From contig OY821740.1 in NCBI GenBank assembly GCA_963682055.1, positions 17,322,814-17,386,813 of the forward strand: DNA of 64,000 bases. The letters are read 5' to 3'. Shown here one piece after another: positions 27,686 to 50,383 of this stretch; position 1 is the first letter of the stretch, and each line of letters starts with the position of its first letter. The stretch is from Primula veris (lineage: Eukaryota > Streptophyta > Magnoliopsida > Ericales > Primulaceae). Made by a program: the position numbers and the translations under genes. Below the pieces are notes generated by a model that saw only the letters and a list, made by a program, of their open reading frames with translations, was not told where the DNA came from and did not search any database.

Positions 27686-28265
27686 TGATAAAGCAATAAT
27701 TTTGATCGAGTCGCGTTATGCTTTTCAACAATATTAATGTAAATTAAGGAAAGTAAATATTGGACACGTTGTTCTTTCTTATTGATCGGTAATTATTCTT
27801 GCTCGGATTACAATTTCTTATTACACTTATGCTCGGTCTGATAACTTAATCTTAATCTTGAACTTTATCCTTGATGCTCGGTCTTTTATTTAACTTCTCT
27901 CGGTATGCTTTATAGTGAGATAAGCTCTGACAAATATCTTTTTTGTATATTCTTTTTGTATATTCTTTTCTCTGTGATTTTTCAGGTTTCTTTCCTAGTG
28001 AAGATATTTGGCTATTTATAGGCATTTATGCTTTATATGATGTTGACAAGTGTCTCCATCTCATGCGTAATCTCATATGCTTTTCCATTGTGAAGCTTTA
28101 TTAATTGGGCTAAGATACTTATTGGATAATTACCCTTATCCTTAAGTGGAGAAAATACTGTTATACCCCGGGTCTTATGATAACTGCATTGGATACCCAT
28201 TAATGACGTGTGGATCGATTCGTATTCGAATAGGTATATTCGGGTCTGATCTTTATATTCTATCA
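27686..28265 (-). repeat. Solo LTR of a Tat-type gypsy element
   Basis: Starts TGATAAAGCAATAATTTTGA and ends TATTCTATCA. It aligns along its length with the 5' LTR at 49821-50383 (shared words TTTTCAACAATA, GGCTATTTATAG, GATGTTGACAA, TCGATTCGTA, TATATTCGGGTC-like, TATATTCTATCA). The flanks ATTGA and AGTGA are a five-base target-site duplication with one mismatch. No internal region is present, so it is a recombined solo LTR nested in the Mutator-like element. Its TATA box (GGCTATTTATAG, minus strand) is retained at about 28010-28021. Confidence 0.85.
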
Positions 28266-30814: not shown

Positions 30815-32498
30815 TACTGGCCTCGTTTGGCAGTAAACAAAAAGTATACTTTTCATGCTTTTACTTTTCATTTTTTCAAAACCGTTTGACAGTCATTTTT
30901 ACTTTTATTTTTATCAAAAGTAAATCATTAAGTATACTTTTGACATATTTTACTTTTACTTATATTTAGTTTGTTTGAACGTCATCTCATAAGTATACTT
31001 TTAGTGAAAAGTAAATGTCTATAAGTAGACTTTTTAAAAGTAAGTTCGATGATACTTTTACTAGTAAGTAAAATACTACTACTGTTTATATATGTTATAT
31101 GATAAACCTATTTCAGTATTGAATCCAACTTGTTGAATCTGAATGAACAAAATCTGTTATATTACTCAAGTTTTCATAACTAGATTAAAATTTAGGTTTT
31201 AATCTGAATGTGATTTTAAAGTACAGTTCAAAACTAGTTCCTATCATCATTATATTTTCCTAATTTTGTATTTTTAATCTTTAAATAATGAAATGTTTTT
31301 TTGCTAGTTAATTATTTTGCTTTATTCTATTAATAGAAATAAACAAGGGGTAATTCCCTATAAATACGTCATAACAACTTATATTACTCCTAGATACCTT
31401 GATAATTTCACATTTCTCATAGGTACCACTTTTTAATTATTTAGTTTATTTACTAAATTGTCATACAAACCAAAATATAATATACATATTTTATCTTTCT
31501 ACAAACCCAAAAAAATAGTTTTAAATTACAAAAAAAAAAAAAAAAACACAAAAAATTTATAAAAATGAAAAAAATCACAAAAAAATATAAAAAAAAACAA
31601 AAAAAACAAAAAATTATAAAAAAAACGAAAAAAATCATAAAAAATTATAAAAATCACAAAAAATCACAAAAAATCACAAAAAAATAAAAAAAATTAAAAA
31701 AAATCATAAAAAAATTATAAAAAATCACAAAAAAAATACAAAAATCACAAAAAAATTATAAAAATTATAAAAAATTTAAAAAATTACAAAAAATGAAAAA
31801 AAATCACAAACTTTTAAAAAAATTTTAAAAAATATATATAATTTTTTTTGTCAATATAACACTTTTTATACCGAAAAATAAAAAAAAATATAAAAAATGA
31901 TAAAATCTTTGTAATTTTTTTAAAATTTTGTGATTTTGTGATTTTTATAATTTTTTATAATTTTTTATAATTTTTTTTTCATTTTTGTGATTTTTTTTCA
32001 TTTTTTTTCATTTTTTTTATTTTTTAAAATATTTTGTGATTTTTGTGATTTTTTATAATTTTTTTAATTTTTTTTGTAATTTTTTTAAAATTTTGTGATT
32101 TTGTGATTTTTTATAATTTTTTTGTGATTTTTATTTTTTATTTTTCATTTTTTGTGATTTTTTGTGATTTTTTTTCATTTATTTTGAGATTTTTTTTATT
32201 TTTCATTCATTTATTAAAAAGTGGTAATTATAGGGAATATGAACTTATAGAGGTAACTAGGAGTAATATAAGTTCAAAAGTGGTACATATTGTGCATTAT
32301 TTGAATAAATAATTCATTTTCACTCAAAAAGTAAAAGTAAACATATTTTACCAAACAACATTAATGAAAAGTATATTTTTACGATATTCACCAAATATCA
32401 TTTACTTACTAAAAAGTAAACATAAAAAGTATATTTTTTAACTCACTTACAAAAAATATACTTTTGAACATAAAAGACGCGACCAAACGAGGCCAGTA
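30815..32498. mobile_element. Foldback transposon with near full-length inverted arms
   Basis: A perfect 16-bp terminal inverted repeat (TACTGGCCTCGTTTGG at 30815-30830 and its complement at 32483-32498) bounds a 1.68-kb palindromic unit. Inner landmarks also mirror: CTTATATTACTCCTAG near 31378 returns inverted as CTAGGAGTAATATAAG near 32262, and GGTACCACTTTTTAA returns as TTAAAAAGTGGTAAT. The left arm centre is dominated by A (AAAAATCACAAAAAAT words) and the right arm by T. The turn lies near 31850. There is no coding capacity. No target-site duplication was recognised. Confidence 0.85.
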
Positions 32499-34420: not shown

Positions 34421-34440
34421 TGATAAAGTCATAACATTAT
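34421..34440 (-). repeat. Stub of the 3' LTR
   Basis: TGATAAAGTCATAAC matches the terminus of the 5' LTR (TGATAAAGCCATAAC at 49821) with one mismatch. After about 16-20 bp, similarity stops and the upstream region of the first antisense ORF begins. The other 540 bp or so of the LTR are absent. Confidence 0.8.
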
Positions 34441-34526: not shown

Positions 34527-34536
34527 CTATAAAATG
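34527..34536 (+). promoter_or_regulatory. TATA box of antisense ORF A1
   Basis: CCTATAAAATGG lies about 55 bp upstream of the A1 start codon at 34586, a normal plant TATA-to-ATG arrangement. Confidence 0.6.
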
Positions 34537-34585: not shown

Positions 34586-34897
34586 ATGGCCTCTCCCAAT
34601 GGTGCTACTGGTGACAACTCTCCCGAATACATTGCTCATTTAGAAAACGAGGTCAAGAAAGTTCGTGCTGTGAAAAGGAAGCTGGCCGTTACGGCGAAAA
34701 AATTATCTGATATGGATGCGGCTCATCACGTGACGATGGCTGATCGGGATTGGGCCTTTGAGCGTATAAAGAGGCTCGAGGCTTCTCTGGCTAAGCAAAG
34801 GGCAGCAAAAAGGGCCTATAAGCTTGCCTTCAAGGAGCTGCACAGTCGGTCCAGACCGGGGTCGGATGACGTTGAAGCAGGCTCTTCCTCGGAATAA
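34586..34897 (+). CDS. Antisense ORF A1: 103-aa coiled-coil protein of the Tat element
   Basis: I do not recognise a known function. The product starts MASPNGATGDNSPEYIAHLE, is highly charged throughout, and has heptad-like Glu/Lys/Leu/Ala spacing that predicts coiled coil from about residue 15 to 90. It ends in an acidic/serine tail. It is clearly paralogous to A2: both begin MASP, share GDN-PEY, and carry KRAYKLA-KE before an acidic end. The in-frame ATG at 34586 is preferred over the upstream one because it follows the TATA box and aligns with A2. An AATAAAA signal follows at about 34960. Encoded opposite to gag-pol. Confidence 0.7.
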   Translation: MASPNGATGDNSPEYIAHLENEVKKVRAVKRKLAVTAKKLSDMDAAHHVTMADRDWAFERIKRLEASLAKQRAAKRAYKLAFKELHSRSRPGSDDVEAGSSSE

Positions 34898-35127
34898 TTA
34901 GTTTTTGTAATTTCTTTTGTATTGGGTATCATCCCCAGTTGTAACCGAACTTTTGGAATTAATAAAATATTTCCTTATTCTCGTTCTTGTCTGTTTATCT
35001 TCTTGATATCTCATTGGATGACTTTAATTGGACTTGAACTGTTGTTAGTTAAACATAAATGTCCTTGAGAAGTTCAAGAGGGTTGGTATATTTTCGAGAT
35101 GACCTTTGATCTTCCCCATTATTTCTT

Positions 35128-35139
35128 CCTATAAAAGGG
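35128..35139 (+). promoter_or_regulatory. TATA box of antisense ORF A2
   Basis: CCTATAAAAGGGG lies about 55 bp before the A2 start codon at 35187, the same spacing as in A1. Confidence 0.6.
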
Positions 35140-35186
35140 GGCTGTACCTATCTTTTTTGTATAATTTACTCCGTATCAACGTACAA

Positions 35187-35525
35187 ATGGCTTCTCCTCG
35201 TGAAACTAGTGGTGACAACCTTCCTGAGTATGTTGCCCCTCTAGAGGAGGAGGTGAAGAAAGCTCGTATCCTCGAAAGGAGGGTTGCCTCTTTAACCATG
35301 GAGGCTCGTCGAGCTGCCGAGATGGACGAGCGCTTGGAGGCCATGGAGAGTGAATATCAGAGGTCTCTAATCGACAATATTTGGGCTCGTGCTCGGATCA
35401 AAGAGCTCGAGGCCTCTAGAGATAGGCATATTGCTTCCAAGAGGGCTTATAAATTGGCCCTCAAGGAAGTGTATGCTCGGTCTAAAAAGAAGTCTGATGA
35501 TGGAGCTGATCCTTCTGCAAAATAA
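35187..35525 (+). CDS. Antisense ORF A2: 112-aa coiled-coil protein, paralogue of A1
   Basis: Begins MASPRETSGDNLPEYVAPLE and continues as a long charged helix (EEEVKKARILERRVASL, AEMDERLEAMES, ARARIKELEASRD) ending KRAYKLALKEVYARSKKKSD and an acidic tail. Coiled coil is predicted by eye for about residues 17-95. The shared start, core and end with A1, together with a similar promoter, show a tandem gene duplication inside the element. A polyadenylation-like AATGAAG/TTAATCAATGAAG region follows. Function unknown. Confidence 0.7.
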   Translation: MASPRETSGDNLPEYVAPLEEEVKKARILERRVASLTMEARRAAEMDERLEAMESEYQRSLIDNIWARARIKELEASRDRHIASKRAYKLALKEVYARSKKKSDDGADPSAK

Positions 35526-36035
35526 TTCTTTCTTTTTATTTTTGTAATTTCCTTTTGTTGACTAGTATCTTGTAATGAAGTTCCAATTAATCAATGAAGA
35601 TTCTTCTTTCTCTTGTTCTTATCTGGTTTATTCTTCCAATGCACTGTCCTTACTGCGCGCGTGTGGCTTCATTAATGGGTTTTATTGGGCCCTGTGTTTG
35701 ACCTTATCCACTGGGTTTTCTCGAGCCCAGTGCAAAGAATATATATTTTCAATGTTCCTGGAGATTGCTGCACTTCCCTATATTGACACGCGTGTAATTG
35801 CTTTTGCCATGAATATTAAATTAATGGCACAAATCCAAGGGTTTCTTTTGAACAGTCGCGTCTCTTTTAATGCACACGCTTCTCCAAACCCTTTCTGGCT
35901 AACGGTTGCGACTCTTCACCTCAAGCCTTTATCAATTTCTCTATAAATACCCCTTCGAAGCTTGTATCTTTCCATAATCTCTTCATACCAGTTTCTTTCT
36001 ACATATATTTTTATTCTATATATATATATATTGCG
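35526..36035 (+). promoter_or_regulatory. Spacer and promoter of antisense ORF A3
   Basis: Contains the A2 3' region, then CTCTATAAATACCCC (TATA at 35941-35949), and an (AT)n run at about 36015-36030 just before the A3 start codon. A plus-strand ORF at 35575-35946 overlaps this spacer but has no coding features, so I do not call it. Confidence 0.5.
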
Positions 36036-36329
36036 ATGACTTCCCCCTTTTCCAATTCCTCCTTAACCTTGCAAGTGGAAGCTTTCAAGGCCACTTATGG
36101 TAATGCCTTGAAGCTTTTGAGAGATGCGGAGGCGGAGTTAAAAACAATGCGTGGTTACCATAAGGAGATGGTGAGAGAGTTGAATTGGGTCAAGGCCGAG
36201 TTAGATTACTGCAGGCGTGCTAACCAATCCCTGCTTGATGAGAACACCGTTCTAAGGAAGAATCCCTCGCTCCAAGATGCTATGAGCCCAGCAGGGCCCT
36301 CTCATCATTACCGACCATCTTCCTCCTAA
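36036..36329 (+). CDS. Antisense ORF A3: 97-aa coiled-coil protein
   Basis: Starts MTSPFSNSSLTLQVEAFKAT and continues with alternating charged and hydrophobic residues (LLRDAEAELKTMRGYHKEMV, LNWVKAELDYCRRANQSLLD, ENTVLRKN), then a short Pro/Ser-rich tail. This is a Leu/Glu/Arg coiled coil of about 65 residues. It differs from A1 and A2 in sequence but has the same size, composition and unit layout (TATA, leader, ORF, pyrimidine-rich trailer). Unknown function. Confidence 0.6.
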   Translation: MTSPFSNSSLTLQVEAFKATYGNALKLLRDAEAELKTMRGYHKEMVRELNWVKAELDYCRRANQSLLDENTVLRKNPSLQDAMSPAGPSHHYRPSSS

Positions 36330-36660
36330 CAACCTTTTTCTGCCTTTTTCTCTTGCACTCTTCTTCTTTTCCTCTTTTTCTGTTTTTCTCTTTTTTCTCA
36401 CATTTTTTCCTTTTTCTCTTTCTTTTCCAATTTTCTTCATTTCTTCATCTTTTCTTATCTCCCTTTCTTTTTCTTCATCTTCTTTTTACCACTACGATGT
36501 AACAATCAACCCTGAGTTCCTCGGGTTTTTTGTTATTTTCGTTTGTCTCTTCTTTCTTATGTTTCTTTTCTTCGTATTTTTCACTTCTTCTTTATGTTCC
36601 TCTTCATCTTTTTCTTTTATTTTTTTTTACCTCTTTCCTTCATGCTTCCTGTTCGCTTGG
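36330..36660 (+). repeat. Long polypyrimidine tract after A3
   Basis: About 300 bp is almost pure C and T on the plus strand (CTTTTTCTC, TTCTTCATC words). Read on the element's own strand it is a long purine-rich tract. It lies well away from the 3' LTR, so it is not the normal plus-strand primer tract. Confidence 0.7.
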
Positions 36661-37014
36661 CTTGCTGATATAGTCGATCTTCTTTGAATGATCATCTGTA
36701 ATAGATTTTTCTCTGATGTAATAGATTTTCTTTTGATGTCCTCTGATATAATAGTTTTTCCTTTTGATGTTGTCCTCTGATGTAATGAGCAGCGATGTAT
36801 CCCATCTTTATTAATGAAAATTATCTTTGCCCCTTTATCTTGTACTTCTTTTTATGTTGCACTTGTGGTTTGTCGTTTTCCTGGAATGTGGACCTTTGAA
36901 TATTTTGTATCTTTATTTCTTGCCGTACTGTAGCTGTGTGACATCTGAGACATGGCAGGTTGGTCAAAGATGCATGTTTCCAAGCATTGTCAGACAAGGC
37001 CATACTACCTTGGC

Positions 37015-37023
37015 TCTATAAAT
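37015..37023 (+). promoter_or_regulatory. TATA box of antisense ORF A4
   Basis: CTATAAATA sits immediately before the three 64-bp leader repeats. Without the two extra repeat copies, the TATA-to-ATG distance would be close to that of the other units. Confidence 0.6.
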
Positions 37024-37213
37024 ACTCTCATCTTTTCTTTTGCAACTATCTCCTCTTACAAACTTTAATTGTTTTCTTCTCTGTCATACTCTCATCTTTT
37101 CTTTTGCAACTATCTCCTCTTACAAACTTTTATTGTTTTCTTCTCTGTCATACTCTCATCTTTTCTTTTGCAACTATCTCCTCTTACAAACTTTTATTGT
37201 TTTCTTCTCTGTC
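37022..37213 (+). repeat. Three 64-bp tandem repeats in the A4 leader
   Basis: ATACTCTCATCTTTTCTTTT begins copies at 37022, 37086 and 37150, with nearly identical 64-bp units. They fall between the TATA box and the A4 start codon and so would be transcribed as 5' UTR. Confidence 0.95.
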
Positions 37214-37251
37214 ATCCCTCATCTCCTTCTTTATCGTAACAACTTTCCATA

Positions 37252-37710
37252 ATGTCTGAGCCCGTGGTGAGATATCATGCTCAGATGAAGGACTTAGATG
37301 CTGAGGTATCTCGGGTCCGTCATAGAATGGCCAGTCTTGAGAAGGAGTATGGTGTTTTGGCTTTGAGTTTGTGCGACTCTCATCCCGAGGAGACAATGAA
37401 GTGGACCGAGATTTCGGCCTTGAGTCGTCAGCTTGATAATTTGTTGTTGCACATAAATCACCTGGCCAACTCTTGGTACGAGGCCGAGGAGATTTGGGAT
37501 CATGCTCAGGATGAGTTCGATAACTCCCCTCAAGGCTTAGCTGGTATGTCGGTTAGGAATGCTCGGCTTGAGGAGCGTATCAGGGTCCTTACTAGGACGA
37601 ACACCGATCTCTCCAGGGAGAATGAGTCCTACCAAGCTTGGTTAGATTGTTCTGCTCGGGTAGCTTTATCCCGATCTGACAGTTCGGTTTTCCCGCCCCT
37701 TGATCCTTAA
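37252..37710 (+). CDS. Antisense ORF A4: 152-aa coiled-coil protein
   Basis: Starts MSEPVVRYHAQMKDLDAEVS. It has two helical blocks: about residues 8-35 (DAEVSRVRHRMASLEKEYGV) and about 45-130 (ALSRQLDNLLLHINHLANSW, YEAEEIWDHAQDEFD, RNARLEERIRVLTRTNTDLS). A short Ser/Pro tail follows. No catalytic motif or zinc-binding pattern is seen. It is the largest of the single-exon units. Not recognised beyond the coiled-coil character. Confidence 0.6.
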   Translation: MSEPVVRYHAQMKDLDAEVSRVRHRMASLEKEYGVLALSLCDSHPEETMKWTEISALSRQLDNLLLHINHLANSWYEAEEIWDHAQDEFDNSPQGLAGMSVRNARLEERIRVLTRTNTDLSRENESYQAWLDCSARVALSRSDSSVFPPLDP

Positions 37711-37770
37711 TTTGATTGGGCCAGTGTTCTGATGTATTTTCCATTTTGTAATATGTATTTCGTTTTTCTT

Positions 37771-37852
37771 TTTCTGTATCTGGGAAGTTGTACCATTTCG
37801 TATCTTGTGCCTTTCTGTATCTGGGAAGTTGTACCATTTCGTATCTTGTGCC
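37771..37852 (+). repeat. 41-bp tandem duplication just upstream of the A5 TATA box
   Basis: TTTCTGTATCTGGGAAGTTG starts copies at 37771 and 37812, identical over the 41-bp unit. The duplicated segment ends about 10 bp before the TATA box of A5. Confidence 0.9.
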
Positions 37853-37861
37853 CTTTGATTC

Positions 37862-37870
37862 CTTATAAAT
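37862..37870 (+). promoter_or_regulatory. TATA box of antisense ORF A5
   Basis: CTTATAAAT lies about 90 bp before the A5 start codon at 37955, just after a 41-bp tandem duplication that may have doubled upstream elements. Confidence 0.55.
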
Positions 37871-37954
37871 GCTTCCTATTGCTTGTACTTCATTACCAAT
37901 ACTTTCTCTCTCTTATTTTATAATTTTGTTTCTTCTAATTCGCTTTTATCTAAG

Positions 37955-38317
37955 ATGGCTCCCATCACTAGATCTGCTGCTAAAAAGAAGGCCTTGCTTG
38001 AAGAGGAGCCTTTTTTCATGCTACCCCGTCCCCCTGGTTTCGGGGAAGAGGAATTGACCCCTCTTCAGTTGAAAGAAATCGAGATGTCGTGGCTGAAAGT
38101 CGATCTCAAATGTGCTCAGACTGAAGTCAGGAGGTTTGAACAGTATTGGGATGAGGAGGGTACGGCTCGTTTCGAACCCGAGCAAAAGTGCAAGTCTCAG
38201 TCTTACGCCTTGCAACATGCCGAGATGGGCATCTCTCGCTTGATCAAGGAGAGGGATCATCTGAAAGAGCTCTTGGCAAAGAGGGACGCCGACGTGGGGG
38301 GTAGTTCCAAGAAGTAG
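37955..38317 (+). CDS. Antisense ORF A5: 120-aa basic-to-acidic coiled-coil protein
   Basis: Starts MAPITRSAAKKKALLEEEPF with a basic N-terminus that could act as a nuclear signal (inference). A coiled-coil stretch follows (LTPLQLKEIEMSWLKVDLK, AQTEVRRFEQYWDEE, HAEMGISRLIKERDHLKELL) and the end is a Ser/Lys tail. The start codon chosen is the first after the TATA box. An AATAAAA signal follows at about 38388. Function unknown. Confidence 0.62.
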   Translation: MAPITRSAAKKKALLEEEPFFMLPRPPGFGEEELTPLQLKEIEMSWLKVDLKCAQTEVRRFEQYWDEEGTARFEPEQKCKSQSYALQHAEMGISRLIKERDHLKELLAKRDADVGGSSKK

Positions 38318-39060
38318 GATGGGTGTTTTTTCTTGTAAACTTTCCTTTTCCCGTTGTACGTGTTTGTTTGTATCCCCCTTCGTGGATGAATAAAACTTCT
38401 GCTTTTGCAATTTGATTGTCTATTTTTTATTTGCTTTGCCTTCATGTTGAAAACATACGTTGCCTTTCAGTATTGGACACCAAGCAAAGTGCCTCGTGTT
38501 ATCCCCCCCCGGAGAGCGTTGCTAGTTTGGATGCTTAAGAGCCGTCGAGCTAGGAACGGTCTTCGTCTACCTTGTTGGGTGTGTATTGGTAAGAAGCTGT
38601 TTGGTGTCGAGAGACTTTATTGGGGTGCATCCTCGGTGGCAATTATTGTGCCATATTGCTTGTATTAATATTGGTAGCGTATGCTGTAAACTTTTTAGTG
38701 GTGGGGTCCACTAGCCGTTTATATAGGTTCAATGATGTGAACTGCATTGGTTAGTGGGCTATGTTTTTGACGTGGCCAGATCTGGAGCATTGAAATTTAA
38801 AATATCTGGAGGTGTGTTGACTTTTCTGTGGCTGAAAAGAGAGAAACCTCTGTGACACGAAAGGACGGTTAATAGTTTATTCCCTTTATTGCAGCGTCAC
38901 TCCCTTATCTTTCCCTAGTAATTCTTTTTGATCTTACTTTGCTCCCATAATTTCCCCACCTTTTTCTCTCTCTAGGGTTTGTGCTGCTCGCTAGAAAAAA
39001 TATCGCCTGTTATCTAGTCGAAGAAAAAGGATCACCAAGGCCGTACTCCCCCTTCGATAA
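38318..39060 (+). promoter_or_regulatory. A5 trailer and promoter region of spliced antisense gene A6
   Basis: Holds the A5 AATAAAA signal, a TATA-like TTTATATAGG at about 38718, and a leader with a CTAGGGTTT word common near plant gene starts. No coding region is supported. Confidence 0.45.
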
Positions 39061-41553
39061 TGGCTGTAAGTACATTAATGTCTTCGATTTATTTATCCGT
39101 ATGCCCACATAGGTTTGTATTGATTTGTTGTCGGTGGTGGGCTGCGTATTTTGTATTGGCATTTTGCTATTTTGGAGTTTATGATTAGACTATATGTGGT
39201 TGAGTGGAAATTGCTGGTGTATGTGTTGTTTGTGTTTTTTGTATTGAAATTTCGGTTTTGTGTGTGCTGTGTGATGGCTGGTGTGGTGGTTTATTTGTGG
39301 TACGCCTCACCGTAGGTTTGTGTATAAATGGTTGGTTGTGTTGATATTGCAGGATCTTCTCGTCCCCTGCCTGGCCCAACTTGGGAGTTTTAATGAAGCA
39401 AAATTTAAAGAACAAGCAGGAATACCTACGGACGTGCACATTCGTCCTCCCAGGACCTTGGAAGAGGCTCAGGGGCATGTGGCCGCCAACGAGGTAGCCC
39501 TTAGGTCTTCTTCCCTGTTGACCGGTGGGGTGAAACTCCCATTGTCGGACTGGATGGTCTCCTTCTTTGAGGCCTTTCAAATTGCTCCCTGCCAGCTTGC
39601 GCTGAATACGTTCCGTATACTTAATGGTATCAAGAAGCTGTCTGAGTTGGCAGGCGTGTCAATAGAGTTGAAGGATGTCATGGGCATCTATGGGTTCCAG
39701 TTCGAGATGCGGAGCTCTTACTTGAAGTCGGTGCGTCAATTCACCCGACTTGTTATTGATTTGCCCGACACAAACAAGGAACATAACCTTGGTCTCGTGA
39801 TCGTGTCTGGGAATTGGTGTCCTGCGGGTCGCTAGATTCCTGCTCCCGCTGAAGCTGCTCCCGAGCTTCCGAACCTCAGTGCTCCCAATCTGGATGCTCT
39901 AGTAGCTCTTTGGAGTTGGTGGGGACCTGGGTCCACGAAGGAGGCCGAAAGCCGTGCTGCTCCCAAGTTGCTGGGGTATGTGGCCAAGGCTGGGAATAGG
40001 TGCGCTAACGCGCCGGTGATCCCCAAAGAGACGGTGGCTAACTTTATCTCGATTGTTAAGCCCCGTGTCGTGTCACTGAGTAAGAAGTCTGCTCGGCGAC
40101 GATCGGCCGAGCCTCGGGAGGGCCCCCCTAAGAAGGCTAGGGTTGCCGAGTCGACGAGCAGTGATGTGGTACCCAAAAGGGGTCCAAGTTTGGATGTAAC
40201 ACCGGCGGCCGCTGTATCTGACTTCCTCCACATGGATCAGACACCTCAACCTGTGCGGAGCTTGGATGGGGGAGTTCAATATCTCCTTCAGGAGATCCCA
40301 ATCTTGCCTGTCACTACCGGGGACAAGAGCGCTGCCGCCTTGGTAAGTATAATTGTCGATGTCATTTGTAATTTCATTTGCTCTCCTTTATGTGCTATTT
40401 GTTCTTCAGTCGTTGACTTCTCTGTTGGCGACGTTCGCCTTGGCCCGGTCTATGGGTGTTGTTTTGTTTCAGGGGTCGTTCAGTGACTTGTTCGATTATG
40501 TGAACCTGAGCGTGGGCATGGGAGAGAGTATGATGACTCTTCCCAATATCTCATCACCAGAAGAGGTGGTGAAGGATAAGGCCCCTGAGACTAGTGCGGT
40601 GGATGCGGAATTGCCGACTGCTGAGGAGGATGTCGAGGTCGTATGTAAGGAAATGGGTGTGCCCAATGAAGAGGCAGGCGAGGGGAGCGTTGGAAAGGTA
40701 GAGGTGGACCTGGAAGCTATGACCCGTTACATCGATGTATGCAACGGCGATTTGTTGGGGAGCTCCCGAGCATTGAAGATGGGGTGTACGGCCCTTATGC
40801 CCCTGGCGTACCAAAATATGCTGGGTATAGTTGCCCAACCTGCTGTGGCGACCGTTGACCGGGACCATGTCGATGCCCTTCGTGTAAGCTCAGTCTGATC
40901 ATTAATGAGTATGGTTTCCTTTGTTGGTATTTTATTTGACATGCGTGCAGATATGCCTCGCCACCGCTGAGCTGAGAAACCGGTTCACGGCCTTGGAAGC
41001 CGAGAAGGAACAGCTAGCGACCGAGCACAAGCTTATGGAGGAAAATCTTGGGATCGAGAATGAGAAGAGCACGCGTCTGGCGGCGGAAAAAGCTAAGCTG
41101 GCTCAGGAGAATACGCAGCTGGTTGATGAAAATAAGGTGGTTGTCGCTGAGAAGGGGGTCGTGGCCGAAGAGAAGGCAAGGATGGAGGCTGAAAAGAAGG
41201 TGCTGGAGGACCGGGTAGCCACGTTGGAGGCGGGTCGAGCAGATGATTGAGATCAGTTCACTAAGATCGTTAATTTCTATGCCTATAGCTATCATGTACG
41301 GGCTTTGAATGTGGCGAAAGTCCCTTTCTCTCATCCGGCCTGGTCCACCTTTGCGTATCTAGCAAGTCGAGTTGCGCCTCCGTTGCCCAAAGACTGGGCT
41401 AATATCCAGGATGAGGAGGTGCCACATATGCTGGGGCCATCGTCGTCTCCCGCTCCTCGACCGTATTCGGGGTCAAGCTCTTCAACCCCTCGAGCGGTGA
41501 CCCCTCAGGGACCTTCCCTTCCTCAGCCTCCTCCTACTCAGGTTGATCATTGA
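39061..41553 (+). pseudogene. Antisense gene A6: four-exon transposon-type protein with two in-frame stops
   Basis: Exons: 39061-39066 (ATGGCT), 39353-40342, 40410-40883, 40951-41553. All introns are GT-AG and every junction is phase 0, giving 691 codons. Only two stops break it: TAG 39833-39835 and TGA 41248-41250. Exon 2 encodes a globular domain (LPLSDWMVSFFEAFQIAPCQ, ALNTFRILNGIKKLSELAG, IYGFQFEMR) resembling the transposase-like region of antisense ORFs in Tat elements. A basic stretch follows (KKSARRRSAEPREGPPKKAR), then an acidic segment, then a long Glu/Lys/Ala coiled coil (exon 4) and a Pro/Ser-rich end. The first tiny exon is the least certain part. Function unknown. Confidence 0.7.
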
Positions 41554-41759
41554 TCTGGCTCCTTTTGTTAACGTGTTTTAGTCGATGTTGGCATTGTTTT
41601 TGGTAGTTATATGTAGGCTGTTTGTATAAATCACAAATCTTTTGGGAAAATTGATAATATTTTGCTCTGTCGTCATTTGGTTGTTTTTATCGCTTTCGGT
41701 ATCATTCCTTTTCTGGTTAGTAGACTTCGTGTGCTTGAAGGTCGTGACAATCATGTCAG
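41554..41759 (+). promoter_or_regulatory. Spacer upstream of antisense ORF A7
   Basis: Contains TGTATAAATCAC at about 41622, a plausible TATA box for A7, and no coding sequence. Confidence 0.35.
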
Positions 41760-42290
41760 GTGCCGGTTAACCCTCTGGCCATGGTGGTCTGGTCCCGACC
41801 AAGTGGCAGTGCAGGTGACTGGGTAGGTTATTCCGAGGAACCTAGTCCTCGTATGGTAGAATTAAACGCTGCACGTCGTGAGAACGACGAGTTGCAAGTC
41901 CAAATTGGGGACTTATCGACTCGGCTACATAAGTTGGGAGAGAAGTTCAGCAAGAAGACTGCCTATTATACTGACAACAAGGGTAAGGCCAAAGAGCTTC
42001 TTGGTGCGCTTCGGCGCTCCCGGGACGAAGCCTGAGGCCGTGTAACGAGCTTGAACTTGGTGTTGGGGGAAGTTTATGAGGATGCCGACTTGCTGCTATC
42101 TTTTGTCAAGGCATATTGGGCCCGAGGTCGCGCTCTGGAGGTGTTTGAGCATGCGAAAGACAGGTGTGGTGTTGCCCGAGTAGAACGTATGGTTGATGCT
42201 ATGGCTGGGGTAACTGGGACCACGGCAGCCTTGAACCGCTTGGATGCGACTGTGAAGGATCGCTTGGGAACGCAAATAGTTTCTCTGTGA
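41760..42290 (+). pseudogene. Antisense ORF A7: coiled-coil protein with one in-frame stop
   Basis: One reading frame spans 41760-42290, interrupted only by TGA at 42033-42035. The product has helical charged segments (MVELNAARRENDELQVQIGD, LSTRLHKLGEKFSKK, AKELLGALRRSRDEA, then after the stop LEVFEHAKDRCGVARVERMV). An ATG at 41753 in another frame reads MSGAG and stops, which suggests a small frameshift near the original start. Unknown function. Confidence 0.5.
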
Positions 42291-42437
42291 GATATTCATT
42301 TTGCTGACGCTTTAGAGATCTCGTCTTCTGTCGAGGGCTTATCTGACTAAGAGTAGCTTTGTATTGCGTTTCAATTGTAGCTTGATGTAAAAGTAGTCTC
42401 TATTTCGATTTCCTGTCTTTTCTTCATCATTTTTTTT

Positions 42438-43136
42438 TTGTGGACGAATATTCATCTCCTCCCTTTTCCCCTCGTTTTTTTATATATAGATACATGCTAC
42501 TTCGTCACACCAGGCTGGTTCTCCGGGCCTCGTTGGGCCGGTGCATGGTCCTACTGTGCTGCCCGGGGCGAGGCCTCATCTGGTGAGGCTAGTGTAGTGC
42601 GTGCCGATTGGCGGTATACCGACTTAATGGGCAAAAATGACAAACTGTATGGTCGGTGTGCCCGACTTAAGGCAAAGCTGAAGGCCCAGGCAGCGTCTTT
42701 TCGTGAGTACGTTCACCATGCCGAGCATGTGGTTAAAGTTCAGGAGCGTCGGTTAAACCGATATTGGCATGAAAAGGAGAAGTTCCTTGGGAAATTAAAG
42801 TCTCTAGTATCCCGGGCCAATGTTTTGGTGAAATATGCTCGTGCTGCACGCACTCGGTTCGATGCTTCTGCAGCCATGTACCAAGTTTGTGAGCTAGCCT
42901 ATGATGATGTTCGCCGTAGGGACGCGTCTCAAAGTCATGAAATCGCCAAGGGCGCAGAGTTCTCAGCTCGGCTTGAGGTGGTGAGTATTGTCGGCGCCAA
43001 TACGACCAATTTTGATTCTTTTCTTCCCCATGAGCGGTGGGATGGTGAGGACACCCATGAGGACACAGTGACGGATGATGAAGAGGTTATGCTCGGTCAA
43101 TTACCGTCGTGCTCCTCATGTAGTAGCTCTTCCTAG
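42438..43136 (+). CDS. Antisense ORF A8: up to 232-aa coiled-coil protein with acidic/serine tail
   Basis: The open frame is 42438-43136, but the first residues look noncoding. A more likely start is the ATG at 42627 (MGKNDKLYGRCARLKAKLKA). The following sequence is helical and basic (VKVQERRLNRYWHEKEKFL), then mixed (CELAYDDVRRRDASQSHEIA), then acidic and serine-rich (TVTDDEEVMLG and a Ser/Cys run). TATATATAGATA precedes it at about 42480. It is the antisense ORF closest to pol, whose end lies 725 bp away on the other strand. Confidence 0.55.
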   Translation: MWTNIHLLPFPLVFLYIDTCYFVTPGWFSGPRWAGAWSYCAARGEASSGEASVVRADWRYTDLMGKNDKLYGRCARLKAKLKAQAASFREYVHHAEHVVKVQERRLNRYWHEKEKFLGKLKSLVSRANVLVKYARAARTRFDASAAMYQVCELAYDDVRRRDASQSHEIAKGAEFSARLEVVSIVGANTTNFDSFLPHERWDGEDTHEDTVTDDEEVMLGQLPSCSSCSSSS

Positions 43137-43375
43137 TCTCTTTTCTTATTTATTCGTCGTACAATATTGCCTCCGTAACGCGGGCGTGGACTATTTGCTT
43201 CATTCCTTTATTCATGTACTGGATCTTTTTACTGTCTTGTTGATATTTTCTTGATTGGATTGTTTTTCCTTTGTTTTCTTTGCTTGGTAATTGATCGCCT
43301 CCGTAATGCGGGCTTGAATTATTGGTACCTGTATATTGCCTTTTTATTTGGCTTTCCTTCGCTTGATTTTTGATT

Positions 43376-43500
43376 ATTGGCACCTACACACTTGCCTCTT
43401 TGTTTGGCTTTTCTTTGCTTGATTTCTGATAATTGGTGCCCGCACACTTGCCTCTTTGTTTGGCTTTTCTTTGCTTGATTTCTGATAATTGGTACCTGCA
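43376..43500 (+). repeat. Tandem repeat of about 57 bp, two full units plus partials
   Basis: GCACACTTGCCTCTTTGTTT and TTCTTTGCTTGATTTCTGAT recur with a spacing of about 56-57 bp, with a diverged partial unit upstream from about 43320. Lies between A8 and the end of pol. Confidence 0.85.
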
Positions 43501-43563
43501 CATGTGCCTCCGGTTTATTGGAGGACTTTGAGTATCCCTAGGCATTCTTTTAGACATGCCATG

Positions 43564-43760
43564 TTGGGAATTTCATAGTATTCCTGGGCACTTAGCCGTT
43601 TGGGAATTTCATAGTATTCCTGGGCACTTATGCCGTTTGGGAATTTCATAGTATTCCTAGGCACGTCTGCCATTTGGGAATTTCATAGTATTCCTAGGCA
43701 CTTGGCCGTTTGGGAATTTCATAGTATTTCTAAGCACTTGGCCGTTTGGGAATTTCATAT
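43564..43760 (+). repeat. 36-37-bp tandem repeat, six units
   Basis: TTGGGAATTTCATAGTATTC starts at 43564, 43600, 43637, 43674 and 43710, with a truncated copy at 43746. Units share GGCACTT and GCCGTT linkers. This is the hypervariable region between pol and the 3' end, known in Tat elements as a source of satellite repeats. Confidence 0.95.
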
Positions 43761-43860: not shown

Positions 43861-46800
43861 TTACACATAGTACTTCTTTAGGTTAGCCACATTCCAAGAA
43901 TTTTTCTCTCCTCTGCTATTTTCGAACAAAACGCTTTTGATTTTGTAGGAAACTAGGCTTGTCCTTTTGACGATCTCGTATGGTCCTTCCCAGGTGGGGC
44001 TTAGTTTGCCATGTATTTCATTGCAGGTATAGACCGTTACTTTTCGCAGCACCAGTTCTCCCACCATGAATTCTTTGGATCCTTTTACTCTCTTGTCATA
44101 AGTTTGCTTAACGCTTTGTTGGTATTTTGCTAGGGTAAGGGCTGCTATCTCTCGTTTCTCGTCTAGCATATCGAGTTCCTCTCTCATTCTTTGTTCATTG
44201 TTTCCCTGCTCGACTAAGGTTGTTCGGAGTGTGGGTAGTCCGATTTCTGTTGGAATGATGGCCTCGACGCCATATGCTAAGCTGAACGGGGTTTCCTTGG
44301 TTTCCGTCTTCGGGGTGGTTTGGCACGACCAAGGGTTGTCTTGATGCCATCTAGTATTGTTCGGTTTGACACTTCATCTTGTCCGTTGCCCTGTGGCTAC
44401 GTCGGTGTCGAATAAAACTTTCGGATACCTAGTTCTTCATACCACAACTGTAGATTGGCGTCCTTGAACTGGGTTCCGTTGTCGGCGACAATAGCGTATG
44501 GTATACCGAACCTGGTGATGATGTACTCCCAAATGAATTGTTTAACGTTGCTGGCTTTGATTTCTCGGAGGGGTTTAGCTTCGACCCATTTGGTGAAATA
44601 ATCCGTCGCGACGATCAGATATTCCATGCTGCCAGGTGCTCTTGGAAGTTTGCCGACCAAGTCAATTGCCCATTGTGCAAAAGGCCACGGAGCCGACACT
44701 GGGGTTATCATGGACGATGGGAGCCGAGGTATCTTGGCGATTCGTTGGCACTTGTCGTATCTTTGGACGTAGACGTCGGCGTCTCGCTTGATATAGGGCC
44801 ACCAATAACCTTGTGTGATGGCCTTGTTGGCAGGGACCTCCCTTTGATGTGTGCTCCGCAGGATCCTTCATGGATCTCCTCCAAGACTGGCTGTTGCAGC
44901 TCGGGCCGGATGCACAGAAGGTTGGGTCCTCGGTAACTGGATTTGTACAGTTTGTCGTCCTCCGATAGCCAGAACCGAGGGGTCTTTCTTGTGATTTTCA
45001 ACGCTTTTATCTTGTCTACCGGGAGCGTCCCGTTTCGCAGATAGTGAATCATGTCGTCCATCCACCCTAGTTCGTATTGTATTGACGTTATTCAGTCTAT
45101 TCTTCTGTTTATGCTCGGGGCTTCCAGAAGTTCCACTGTGATTGACCGAGTGTTGGCTAATGTTAATGTCGAGGCTAGGGTTGCTAATGCGTCGACGTGT
45201 GCGTTTTCGGTGCGATTAATTCTGATTAATTCGCAATGCTCGAACGTGGCCATTAAGCTCTGGACTTTCTCTTGGTATAGGATCATCCGGTCGTCCTTTG
45301 CCTGGTATTCACCGATGGCCTGGTTGACGATTAGCATGGAGTCGGAATTAGCAATTAAGTGGGAGCATCCGAGGGACCGTGCAATGAGCATGCCGTTTAT
45401 CATGGCTTCGTACTCTGCCTCATTGTTAGTAGCGCGGAAGCCCAGCTTGATGTTTTTTCTCGATGATGGCTCCGTCGCTGGACTTAAGGACGATGCCTGC
45501 TCCAGATCCGTCTTTGGTGGCGGATCCATCGACATGTATTTGCCAGTGAGAATGGGGGGATATGGCCAACGGCTCGTCATATCCTTCGGTGAACTCGGCG
45601 ATGAAATCGGCCAAGACTTGTCCCTTTATGGCATGTCGGGGTGCGAATCCTATATGAAATTGGGATAGCTCGACCCCCCAGGCCGCAACTCTGCCGCTTA
45701 TGTCCGTCCGTCGAAGAGATTCCTTGATGTGGAATTTTGTGTAGACTTGGACCTGGTGAGCTATGAAGTAGTGCGGCAGCTTTCTGGTCGCAACGACCAG
45801 TGCCAGGCATAGCTTTTCCAATGGTAGGTAGCGTATTTCGGCTTCGACCAGAGTTTTGCTGACGAAGTAGATCGGGAATTGTTCTCGACCTTCTTCTCTT
45901 AGGATGACTGCGCTCACTGCTGTAGTGGAAACTGCTAGGTAGCATGCCAGAATATCTCCTTTGTTTGGCCTTACTAGAAGTGGCAGCGTCCTTAAGTACT
46001 CTTTGAGGTTGTTGAATGAAGTCTCACAATCTGGGTCCCATACGAATTTTCTATCCTTCTTGAGCGATTCAAAAAATGGTCGTCCCTTGTCCGCGGATCG
46101 ACTGATGAACCTGCTAAGGGCGGCCATCATTCCCGTGAGCTCTTGTACCTGATTCTTATTCTTGGGTGCCGCTAGATTCCGTAGAGCTGTGATCTGGTCG
46201 AGATTAGCCTCTATTCCTCTTCGACTAACCATATGTCCCAAAAATTTTCCTTTGCTGATACCGAACGCGCATTTGCTCGCGTTGAGCTTCAGTTTGTGCT
46301 CGCACAGTGTTTGGAAGACGTCCTTAATGTCTTGGAGGTGGGACGCGACCCTTTTGATTTTGACGACCATGTCGTCGATGTATACCTCCATCGTGTTCCC
46401 CATATGCTTTTGGCAAACATTCGTTATCATCCTTTGATATGTTGCCCCCGCATTGCGTAGGCCGAACGACATTACCGTGTAGCAATAGTTTCCCAAAGGT
46501 GATATAAACGATGTCTTCTCTTGGTCTTCACGGGCGAGGGGGATTTGATGGTACCCCGAGTATGCGTCGAGGAAGGTCATCCTTTCTGCTCCCGCCGTTG
46601 CATCCACCAGTTGATCAATCCTGGGGAGGGGGAATGGATCCCTTGGGCAAGCCTTGTTCAGATTGGTGAAATCTATGCACTCTTTCCTTCCCGTTCTTCT
46701 TAGGGACGACGACCGGATTGGATAACCATTTTGGGTAGAACACCTCCCTTATAGCCCCGGCTTCTAACAGCTTTCGGACTTCGGCGATTATAGCCGCTCT

Positions 46801-47334: not shown

Positions 47335-49740
47335 CTACAGGGACTGATACGGAGTCGTAACAGTTAGGACGATCTTTCCCAATGGTTTAGTCGTTTCGGA
47401 AATGAACCCGATTAGTGTAACGTCGGTAGGCTGCAGGTCCTGCATCTTGAGTTCCATCTTGTCAAAGAGCTCTTTGTACATGATATCACAAAAGGCTGCT
47501 TGGTCGACAAGTACTCTGCTGACCGTATCGATACCAATCTGGACGCGAAGGTTAATGGCGTCCCCGTGGGGGTATATCACCCCTTCTTCATCGAGATCCG
47601 AGAAAGAAATGGGTGGGTGCCGCTGCGACATGCACTGCCGCTTAGAAGTTGAGGCCTGTGACGCCTTGGCTACCTGCCCAAAGTGCGTCAGTTGCCGCCG
47701 TTGTGATCTTTCCCCTTCAGTGGTCTTGGGTCTTGACAGATGCACGACGTTAATTGTCTTGCCTTGTCGGTTGTCGGATCCATCGATGGCTAGCTGTTTG
47801 CCTTTGTTCCCGGCGCCCTTGATGAACTTGTTGAGGTATCCTGCGTCACCCCACGTGTTCATCTTCCACTTCAGATTACGGCAGTGCTCGGTGAGATGGC
47901 CGTGATCCTCATGATAGGCGCAGAAGAGCTTGGAGTCTCTTTGATTGGGGGGAGTAGAGAACGGTTGTGGTCGGGAATACTAGCTTTCCCTGCATATATC
48001 CTTGAGGATATCTTCAGCAGACAGGTTGAAAGTGTATCGCAACTCGACCGGTTCGAAGGTTTTTCGGCGTTCCCTCTCTTGGAACCGACCTTGTTGAAGT
48101 GGTTTGGGGGGCGTCGGGTAGGCGATCCGGAGTGGTTTAGGCTCGCTGATCGGCATTGGATATGTGAGCTGGAGTGGTTTATGTTCGGGTTCTCGGGGTT
48201 GCTCTACCCTGTCATGGACCTCGGGACCTTTGTCCCTTCTGGTCGGTCTAACGGCTTCCCCCTGATTGTTCTTGGCAGAGTTCGGTTAAGGAGTCGCATT
48301 TCCTCGTTCTTATCGGTGATGTGGGTACAATAGGCTAGCAGTGCGTCGGTGGTCAGGAAACTTTTGCCTATGAACTTCCATCTCGCCCAATAGCCGCTAG
48401 GGATGGAGTTGATGAAGTTTTGGATGGCTATGTTATTGGCGTACTGCGGAATCTGGTTTGCCACGTCGATAAAACGTATGCAATAATCATTGAGTCGTTC
48501 ATTCGGCTGCATTGCCATTTTCAGAAGGGTGTCGATGTTGACCTTCTTCTTCCGATGAGCAGCATATCGTGTGGAGTACGCACGGAGAAGCTCCGTCCAG
48601 CTTTCTATGGATCCCCGGGGCAGGTTGTGATACCACGACGAAGCCTCTTGGCCCAAGCTGTTTTTGAAAAACTTGCACATCAGTGCAGAGTCATCACTCC
48701 ACAGTTCCATCCTAGTTTTGTAGTGGCGCAGATGATCAATTGGACAGCTCTTTCCATCATATAGCCTGAATTCGGGGATGATGAACCCCAAAGGATTGCA
48801 GTGCCGAGTGATATGCTCGGTGCATGGAGTTTCTTGGCATACGTCCCAAGACTGTTGGAACGCCTCATCCGGAGCTTGGTAGGTAGGGTGTTCCCCATAC
48901 TGAGGTGGTGGGTAATATCCTACAATGACCCTGTACTCTGGATATCTACCGTCGTTCGGGCTTCTGTTGGGGATAGGTCCCCTAGGGGCGTCTTGGCGAT
49001 CGACAACCGTTGGGGTCGTCTTTATGACATGTTCCCCTTGTCGGGGTATCCTGGTATCATGTGTTCGGCCTGCCACTTCCATAGCTGCTCGGTAAGCGGA
49101 ATCTTCCACTTCGCGTCGGGGGTCTGTATGCGGATTGGTCGGTAGGACGGGCGGTACTATGACGCCGGCTGCTGCCATAGTCGACATGCATGTAGCTGGG
49201 TATTGCGATTTTCAGCGGCCCGTGCCAGTGCGGCCGTAGTCCTATCTTGGTGAATAGGGGTTTGTACTTCCACCGTATACGGTGGAATTATCCGCGGTGG
49301 GAGGGTTGGATATGGGACTATTTGTTCTAGTATGGGGTCGTCGGGCATGCCATACTGGTGGGCTTCATTCGTTTGAAAATGAACCCGTTGGGGACTGGAG
49401 TTGACCGAGGGTGCTGGCAGATGGGCCATTAAGCTTGGACCCGCGTTGTTGAGGCGGCGGTTATTTGTCAAGGGTGTCCTGGTGTGCCTAGTCGCGGACG
49501 GCGCTCGTTCTGCCTCGGTGTCTGTAGGGTTTTCGTCGATATGACCGTCGACTTGTGGGGGCTGATCGGTTTGTTGTTCTGTTTTGACGTTAGAGATGGT
49601 TGGTCGAGATCCGACCTGAAGTGCTTCATAGTGGTCTCTGATGTTGAGGAGATGCGCTAACACGTCTTTGTGGACTGGGATTTCCTGATTGGTCGATGTG
49701 CCTACTTCTCTGGACGGGTTTCTTCGTTGGTGTTTGCCAT
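47335..49740 (-). pseudogene. Tat gag and protease remnant
   Basis: A gag start is possible at 49740 (MANTNEETRPEK then stop). Proline-rich N-terminal gag lies at 49157-49663, and the capsid-like gag domain at 48204-49187 (IDHLRHYKTRMELWSDDSAL, NSLGQEASSWYHNLP, RAYSTRYAAHRKKK). A zinc-knuckle-like FCAYHEDHGHLTEHC lies at about 47885-47930. The protease region is 47335-47862. Its expected catalytic Asp-Ser/Thr-Gly is replaced: it reads RVLVDQAAFCDIMY. Several frame changes separate the parts. Confidence 0.88.
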
Positions 49741-49800
49741 TTGTTGCTCGTCTGGTAGTGTGTTAGTGTTCGGTTTCGAAGCTAGTTGCGAACTAGATCG

Positions 49801-49818
49801 TTCCCGGAGACGGCGCCA
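49801..49818 (-). other. Primer binding site, tRNA-Asp type
   Basis: On the minus strand TGGCGCCGTCTCCGGGAA lies two bases inside the 5' LTR end. It complements the 3' end of plant tRNA-Asp(GTC) at nearly all positions; the comparison is from memory of that tRNA. Confidence 0.8.
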
Positions 49819-49820
49819 TT

Positions 49821-50383
49821 TGATAAAGCCATAACTTTGATCGGTTGCGTTAGATTTTTCAACAATAATATAATATATAGAATAAATAATGAACCCTTCT
49901 TTAATCTTTATTAAGCTCGGTGATATAATTGCTCGAAATACAGTTTCCTATTTGTATCTATGCTCGACATTACAACTTGCTATGATAATCTTGATCTTTC
50001 TTCGATCTCGGTGTTCGGTCTTATATCTTGCTCGGTCTACCTTTTTGTGTGGTGGGTTCTGACAAATTTTTCTATTTTCTCTCATTCTCTCTATATTTTT
50101 TAGATAGATTTTCTGATCCTTCTTTTAGGGGGGGTAGTTGGCTATTTATAGACAATTATGCCTCATGTGATGTTGACAAATGTCGTTATCTCAAGAGCCA
50201 CCTCATGGGCTTTTTCGTTATGGATCTTTATTATTCGGCTGGACCCTTATAGATAATGGCCTGTTAGAAAAGCTCTATTTAGACCATGGGTTTTTGAATT
50301 TTAGCCTTGGATACCCTCAAATAATGGATGGGTCGATTCGTACCCGAATAGATATATTTGGGTCCAATTTTTATATTCTATCA
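49821..50383 (-). repeat. 5' LTR of the Tat element, 563 bp
   Basis: On the minus strand it starts TGATAGAATATAAAAATTGG and ends GGCTTTATCA, next to the primer site. A TATA box (CTATAAATAGCC on the minus strand) lies at 50140-50151. It is homologous to the solo LTR at 27686-28265. Confidence 0.92.

Follow-up and report, generated by a model that had tools for sequence, protein, structure and literature searches.

A multi-gene antisense cassette in a Retand-like retrotransposon of Primula veris

Introduction

What is encoded opposite a long terminal repeat (LTR) retrotransposon when its antisense strand carries a row of short open reading frames (ORFs)? The question is raised by a 64,000-nucleotide stretch of the Primula veris genome (assembly GCA_963682055.1, contig OY821740.1, forward-strand positions 17,322,814 to 17,386,813), hereafter the window, in which plus-strand ORFs at 34586–43136 lie opposite a minus-strand Ty3/gypsy element of the Tat type. 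An earlier note, made from the letters alone, described these as eight plus-strand units forming a tandem array of small coiled-coil genes, each apparently with its own promoter. Antisense ORFs have been described in several families, namely Grande (gene 23, in maize), RIRE2, the Silene Retand element and PvRetro13, and the accessible text of a 2020 review credits the Grande antisense gene with its own promoter and a nuclear product (PMC7264820). Here we report that the Primula cassette is real. It is a multi-gene antisense accessory set, where one or a few such genes per element were known before. The region is probably best explained as a block of accessory genes in a Retand-like (Tat) LTR retrotransposon that has many copies and was active recently.

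Results

The cassette and its recurrence among copies

Between pol and the 3′ LTR, the plus strand of this element holds A1, A2, A3, A4, A5, a four-exon TRP28-like gene, A6/7 and A8. The short genes are A1 (34586–34897, 103 codons, or 152 if an upstream in-frame ATG at 34439 is used), A2 (35187–35525, 112 codons), A3 (36036–36329, 97 codons), A4 (37252–37710, 152 codons), A5 (37955–38317, 120 codons), A6/7 (41781–42287) and A8 (42627–43136, 169 codons). The plus-strand ORFs of the earlier note are therefore present where it placed them, but they are not eight separate genes. A6 (41781–42035) and the frame that follows it (42036–42287) form a single gene, interrupted by a stop in the window copy and spanned over at least 90% of its length by one open frame in 14 of 20 other copies. 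The largest antisense gene, the TRP28-like gene at 39060–41553, had gone unrecognised. Nor does the array consist of repeats of a single gene: A1 and A2 are the sole homologous pair (46% identity, E 1e-26). Profile comparison gave 99.6% for this pair and less than 6% for all remaining pairs, and a common ancestry of all the small ORFs was rejected on this basis, A1/A2 excepted. One copy (L030, reverse complement, 3788–4093) has an extra A1-like stretch beside A1, and the count of A1-like genes may vary between copies. Upstream of A8, a frame at 42380–42626 is open and similar in several copies and follows a conserved AG; A8 may therefore have an upstream exon.

Copies were sampled from one genome of 436.5 Mb, in which the window lies at C1:17322814–17386813. 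A search with A2, in which 150 of 2713 candidate places were scored, returned matches that were all 86–100% identical and in 138 of 150 cases stop-free. Leaving the window aside, 149 places remained; we fetched 10 kb at 20 of them and scored presence by tblastn at E 1e-6. A4 and A5 were present in 20/20 copies, A3, A6, A7 and A8 in 19/20 each, and the TRP28 domain in 18/20; the two integrase pieces appeared in 16/20 and 14/20, counts limited by the 10-kb cut. The order of the cassette genes was identical throughout, with single genes missing in a few copies, and pol lay on the opposite strand wherever the fetched sequence reached it.

Because copies found through A2 are a biased sample, a second set was drawn through integrase. 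Here 150 of 2814 candidates were scored; 149 were stop-free, and 43 shared one 1989-residue open frame. A5 and TRP28 were found in 7 of 8 integrase-sampled copies and A4 in 6 of 8, with one further stretch beginning past A4. A1 and A2 fall outside these stretches, and A3, covered in a single copy, is present there. Related copies thus carry the ORFs, as the earlier reading would have it, both in the 20 biased copies and in most of those reached through integrase. The family occupies some 2,700–2,800 candidate places in the genome, judged from searches that each scored 150. Two integrase-sampled copies are 99.95% identical across 2200 bp, which indicates that the family moved recently.

The limits of the element were taken from the 5-kb upstream flanks of four other copies, together with their 5′ LTRs. 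In these four, the 3′ LTR ends about 110–116 bp before the point at which homology to the window starts, at 34437. Given this position, the window copy has evidently lost its 3′ LTR and A1–A8 lie inside the element. The LTR pairs of the four copies are 97.5, 94.9, 97.7 and 98.4% identical. Target-site duplications of 5 bp, the usual length among plant LTR retrotransposons, were read by eye in 4/4 (AAAAC, TATAT, GAAGT and ATTTT, with TATAT being low-complexity). Their coordinates give element lengths of about 17.1, 17.2, 15.4 and 16.7 kb, with regions of about 9.9, 10.1, 8.8 and 9.5 kb between pol and the 3′ LTR; the shortest of them has no A3.

The antisense frames evolve as protein-coding sequence

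The ratio of nonsynonymous to synonymous substitution rates (dN/dS) was computed over pooled pairs from codon alignments to the window ORFs, using copies that keep at least 60% of codons (copy numbers in brackets). For the short genes it was 0.28–0.29 in A1 (4, thus few sequences even with the window added), 0.11 in A2 (20, a value biased downward since these copies were picked by A2 score), 0.22 in A3 (19), 0.24–0.25 in A4 (18), 0.17 in A5 (19), 0.35 in A6 (19), 0.19 in A7 (19) and 0.22 in A8 (18). In the TRP28-like gene it was 0.14 for the domain (16), 0.33 for the rest of exon 2 (13), 0.47 for exon 3 (15) and 0.25 for the end of exon 4 (18). The integrase pieces gave 0.09 and 0.10 (15, 12) for comparison, and the two shifted plus frames gave 0.65–2.3. 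Across the 12 antisense pieces tested, dN/dS is therefore 0.11–0.47, far below 1.

Other features of the alignments bear on the same point. Observed stops per antisense piece number 0–9 versus random-placement means of 11–86, with A1 as the exception (1 versus 3.5). In an alignment built from nucleotides only, third positions diverge most in A2–A8 and the TRP28 exons, and spacers are nearly flat across phases. Insertions and deletions (indels), counted per aligned site, are much less common in A2, A5 and A7 than in spacers, and less common in A3, A4 and A8; in A6 they are as frequent as in the quietest spacers, and those in A3 are mostly not multiples of three. One frame runs over at least 90% of the ORF in 20/20 copies for A2, 17/20 for A3, 14/20 for A4 and 13/20 for A5. 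Many copies are partly decayed. Taken together, the alignments show that the antisense ORFs are under purifying selection as protein. The idea of a multi-gene antisense cassette that is selected as coding sequence holds up well, both in the recurrent gene order and in dN/dS.

The same data speak to two other explanations. The plus-strand ORFs could be shadows of a sense-strand env-like gene, and dN/dS is indeed lowered in reverse frame 1 (0.20–0.58 overall, 0.22–0.58 in the antisense pieces). Such lowering is expected from the overlap of third positions, however, and dN/dS is lower in the forward frame in every piece, whereas each reverse frame of each antisense piece averages 1.2–7.9 stops per copy. 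This leaves almost no room for a shadowed gene. Alternatively, antisense transcription may itself be what matters, either by forming double-stranded RNA or by interfering with the genomic RNA, the proteins being secondary. Such effects are discussed for antisense ORFs in the accessible text of the 2020 review (PMC7264820). Selection at the protein level in the 12 pieces tested disfavours this explanation, and we regard it as unlikely.

A TRP28-like gene with GT–AG introns, exchanged between subfamilies

All four exons of the TRP28-like gene lie on the plus strand. Exon 1 (39060–39065) consists of two codons followed by GTAAGT, and a similar exon occurs in 15 of the 17 copies having the TRP28 exon start. 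Exon 2 (39353–40342) encodes a PF04195-like domain and a basic stretch, and is followed by exon 3 (40410–40883) and by exon 4 (40951–41553), which begins with a Lys/Glu-rich part. Every exon length is a multiple of three, and the donors are GTAAGT or GTAAGC and the acceptors AG. L013 is the one other copy against which the complete set of splice signals was checked. Exons 2 and 4 each contain one internal stop in the window copy; open relatives exist. The retention of introns in a retroelement is simplest to explain if the gene is transcribed opposite the genomic RNA, which would support antisense expression.

A single place in the genome (L037, C2:22213000–22222999) scores above the PF04195 cut-off, at 29.2 bits, among 150 of 990 candidates scored; 50 shuffles of this locus reached at most 21.9 bits. 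The TRP28 domain of the window matches it over 114 aa (32%, E 6e-12). Within 10 kb around L037, no relatives of A1–A5 were found at E <0.5. A fold predicted for the domain from the single window sequence had a predicted local distance difference test (pLDDT) score of 38 and was not used.

In its TRP28 domain, the window copy shares 95% identity with L013 and, over the portion present there, with L014; against the remaining 16 of 18 copies the identity is 49–68%, although many of them resemble the window closely in A2–A4 and integrase. Pairwise TRP28 distances correlate with those of the end of exon 4 (0.86) and A6 (0.76), less with those of A7 (0.49) and A8 (0.51), and barely with those of A2 (0.13), A3 (0.13), A4 (−0.03) and integrase (0.09). 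Other correlations across the blocks are intermediate, such as the end of exon 4 with A2 (0.48) and A7 with A3 (0.57), and the mosaic thus lacks one sharp break. These comparisons indicate exchange of the TRP28 gene between subfamilies.

Candidate promoter and polyadenylation signals

A conserved TATA box, in the form TATAAA or TATATA at a corresponding position, lies a short way before each of A1–A5. It lies at 34528–34533 for A1 (4/5 aligned rows), 35130–35135 for A2 (5/5), 35942–35947 for A3 (18/19) and 37864–37869 for A5 (21/21), and for A4 near −108 in 18/21 rows, the window copy being one that lacks it. The TATA at 37017, 235 bp upstream of the A4 start codon, which the earlier note probably relied on, is kept in 1/21 rows. 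We ranked hexamer retention over the 300 bp before A3, A4 and A5 with L013 as reference. TATAAA ranks 3, 4 and 1 of 295 hexamers, respectively, where median retention is 0.42, 0.29 and 0.38 of rows. Farther along, a TATA box at 38720–38725 stands 340 bp before TRP28 exon 1, and one at −202 to −233 from A8 occurs in 14/19 rows, the window copy not among them. As far as TATA boxes go, the proposal of one promoter per gene is supported for A1–A5 but not for A6/7, which has a TATA in only 3/19 rows. Putative polyadenylation signals of the form AATAAA follow A1 at 34961–34966 (5/5 rows) and A5 at 38389–38394 (kept in 0.95 of 21 rows, third of 295).

It seems quite likely that most cassette genes make their own antisense mRNA. 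Rather than being separate genes, the ORFs might instead together make up one or two long, spliced antisense transcripts built around TRP28. That TRP28 itself appears spliced, that A6/7 lacks a conserved TATA and that the open frame upstream of A8 follows an AG in several copies would all fit such transcripts. However, A1–A5 each have an ATG, a stop that closes the conserved stretch and a conserved TATA upstream, and AATAAA follows both A1 and A5. We therefore consider long joint mRNAs improbable.

Character and relatives of the predicted proteins

The predicted isoelectric point is 8.8–9.6 for A1, A2, A3, A6 and the basic stretch encoded by TRP28 exon 2, 8.3 for A8, 6.8 for A7, 5.0 for A4 and 6.2 for A5. 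The coiled-coil character ascribed to the whole set was supported for A1–A4 and A6 in a heptad test against shuffles, but not for A5, A7 and A8. The test is weak evidence, since it was positive for an integrase piece too.

Searches of viral contigs gave no relatives of A2, the TRP28 domain or A5, and searches of plasmids gave none of the A1 region. Capture of host genes by the element could also supply such a set, and no evidence in its favour was found. Against this, none of the small ORFs A1–A8 has a Pfam match above the family cut-off, and the genes are kept in many copies, unlike the transduced fragments described in the accessible text of the 2020 review (PMC7264820). Host capture is very unlikely on these grounds, relatives in the host having been sought through Pfam families only.

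The host element in the window

The copy in the window lies on the minus strand; it is a Retand-like member of the Tat type of Ty3/gypsy elements and breaks off at 34437 without a 3′ LTR of its own. The minus-strand gypsy element of the earlier note is confirmed: gag (PF03732), reverse transcriptase (PF00078), RNase H (PF17917/PF17919), a second RNase H (PF13456) and integrase (PF00665) are all present. Its 5′ LTR (49821–50383, 563 bp) has TGATA...TATCA ends and, over aligned pieces, is 72.9–88.4% identical to the 5′ LTRs of the four LTR-bounded copies. Adjoining it is the primer binding site (49800–49818), which we take to be of the tRNA-Asp type; nearly the same stretch stands there in 4/4 copies. 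Next come a gag piece (48207–49211, PF03732 E 3.9e-10), reverse transcriptase with RNase H (45429–46748, PF00078 E 1.3e-24), the second RNase H, or aRH (45095–45625, PF13456 E 4.4e-15), and integrase in two pieces (43864–44867), its frame broken in the window copy, where several gag-pol frames are broken.

These domains bear on membership in the Retand lineage: gag, reverse transcriptase, RNase H and integrase are of the Ty3/gypsy type, and the second RNase H lies before integrase. In Ogre elements, the plant mobile domain PF10536 is positioned before gag; of four minus-strand frames of at least 60 codons between the gag piece and the 5′ LTR, the two scanned do not contain it. The accessible text of Neumann 2019 ties a second RNase H before integrase to Ogre/Retand and reports PF10536 in 57% of Ogre elements, so that this domain is not universal there (PMC6317226).

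Beside pol, at 43321–43759, lie tandem repeats with 56-bp and 36-bp units; two arrays are present, at 43321–43510 and 43564–43759. The corresponding spacer has arrays with units longer than 20 bp in 19/19 copies examined, and the units differ. The repeat unit at 43564–43759 includes a GGAAT...ATTCC dyad, the core of which occurs beside pol in 16/19 copies in varying number.

An LTR-like stretch at 27686–28265 was considered as the missing 3′ LTR and rejected: it is 69% identical to the right LTR and lies about 6 kb beyond the homology limit at 34437. It has near-matching 5-bp flanks (TCACT/TCAAT). Its identity, its position outside that limit and its flanks suggest that it is probably the solo LTR of a related family. 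Elsewhere in the window, 31351–32299 is a long, very AT-rich imperfect inverted repeat whose units measure about 10 bp. A pair of direct repeats at 7566–7988 and 10924–11350, each about 427 bp, 93% identical and 3.36 kb apart, may be the LTRs of a non-autonomous element of short length.

Discussion

The proposal that this region is the accessory-gene block of a recently active Retand-like element brings together gene order, protein-level constraint and element limits. A number of observations weigh against it, or against parts of it. In one of the eight integrase-sampled copies, L040, the 2.2-kb stretch contains no cassette gene. The A2 ratio, as noted, is biased downward, and the first part of TRP28 exon 4 was excluded from dN/dS, since it was matched in just 3/20 copies and is too diverged. 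A6 and A8 have frequent indels, most of which (69/75 and 64/73) have lengths that three does not divide, and A8 is open over at least 90% of its length in only 8/20 copies. The TATA before TRP28 is found at about its window distance in only 8/18 rows, that of A6/7 is not conserved, and the window cassette has no AATAAA besides those after A1 and A5. The heptad signal missing from A5, A7 and A8 was seen in an integrase control piece. The TRP28 domain scores 17.7, 16.8 and 16.2 bits to PF04195, below the cut-off of 26.2, if at the right place and on the right strand. Finally, the repeat unit beside pol and the TRP28 type show no clear pairing among copies, only three of the window type having been compared, which speaks mildly against a strict VANC-like pairing of protein and target.

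The antisense orientation of an accessory block would allow promoters, poly(A) signals and introns to reside in the element while its genomic RNA is neither cut nor spliced. Combined with own promoters, this orientation would supply a second, independent gene set. TRP28 could be the part that contacts DNA, with the small, mostly basic helical proteins as its partners, and the resulting nuclear complex on the element's DNA might counter silencing, comparable to VANC of the VANDAL transposons. The products may act jointly in the nucleus on the element's own DNA, regulating it or averting silencing, a suggestion that we put forward tentatively. The main alternative to chromatin regulation is that the proteins are structural or import factors of the virus-like particle or pre-integration complex. 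A1, A2, A3 and A6 are basic, and a nuclear protein is reported from the Grande antisense gene in the accessible text of PMC7264820, as such a role would allow. Separate promoters, however, would decouple the proteins from gag-pol dosage, and no observation here places them in particles. We see a particle or import role, too, as possible and somewhat doubtful.

Viewed more broadly, the Primula element would be an LTR retroelement with at least seven accessory genes, a number like that of complex retroviruses, which are wholly antisense, mostly have one RNA polymerase II promoter each and include a strongly diverged TRP28 swapped between subfamilies. This whole reading, of an accessory genome evolving in conflict with host silencing, is, in our estimation, about an even call.

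This locus matters beyond one family for several reasons. Antisense ORFs of shorter length are here found to be coding and selected, mostly with a conserved TATA box, in an abundant family with near-identical copies. As a result, the long spacing between pol and the 3′ LTR in some retroelements becomes directly testable, and at least seven transposable-element proteins become candidates for action on silencing. The work also suggests re-reading known Retand elements without an ORF length limit. A literature search, in which few subscription journals were covered, returned no account of short ORFs forming a multi-gene set on the antisense strand.

It is useful to compare the element with known systems, the first of which is its own lineage. 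Like Retand elements, it has Ty3/gypsy gag-pol, an LTR of about 0.56 kb, tandem repeats beside pol and, in the space separating pol from the 3′ LTR, an antisense gene resembling TRP28. In the accessible text of a Retand survey of 617 genomes (Vicient 2025, PMC11963269), the pol–3′ LTR region measures 2,933–6,566 bp and the LTR 315–1,194 bp, and an antisense TRP28 is present in all clusters but two. The four LTR-bounded copies here differ in that their pol–3′ LTR regions of about 8.8–10.1 kb fall outside that range. The same text counts antisense ORFs of at least 600 bp, 104 of them for 63 clusters; A1–A5, at 294–459 bp, fall below this limit. Unlike Grande, RIRE2, Retand and PvRetro13 as described in the accessible text of PMC7264820, the Primula element has a row of short genes with a TATA each.

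Two more distant systems are instructive. As in the VANC/VANDAL system (accessible text of PMC5735166), an accessory protein encoded by a transposable element has diverged between relatives, and repeats lie in the element's DNA; a likeness in working is conceivable. VANDAL is a DNA transposon, however, compared here by description only, and the Primula element shows no clear pairing of repeat and TRP28. HBZ of the human T-cell leukaemia virus (HTLV) is likewise an antisense accessory gene of a retroelement, as the accessible parts of PMC11963269 and PMC7264820 relate. HBZ is a single retroviral gene with its promoter in the 3′ LTR, whereas the Primula cassette has internal TATA boxes before A1–A5.

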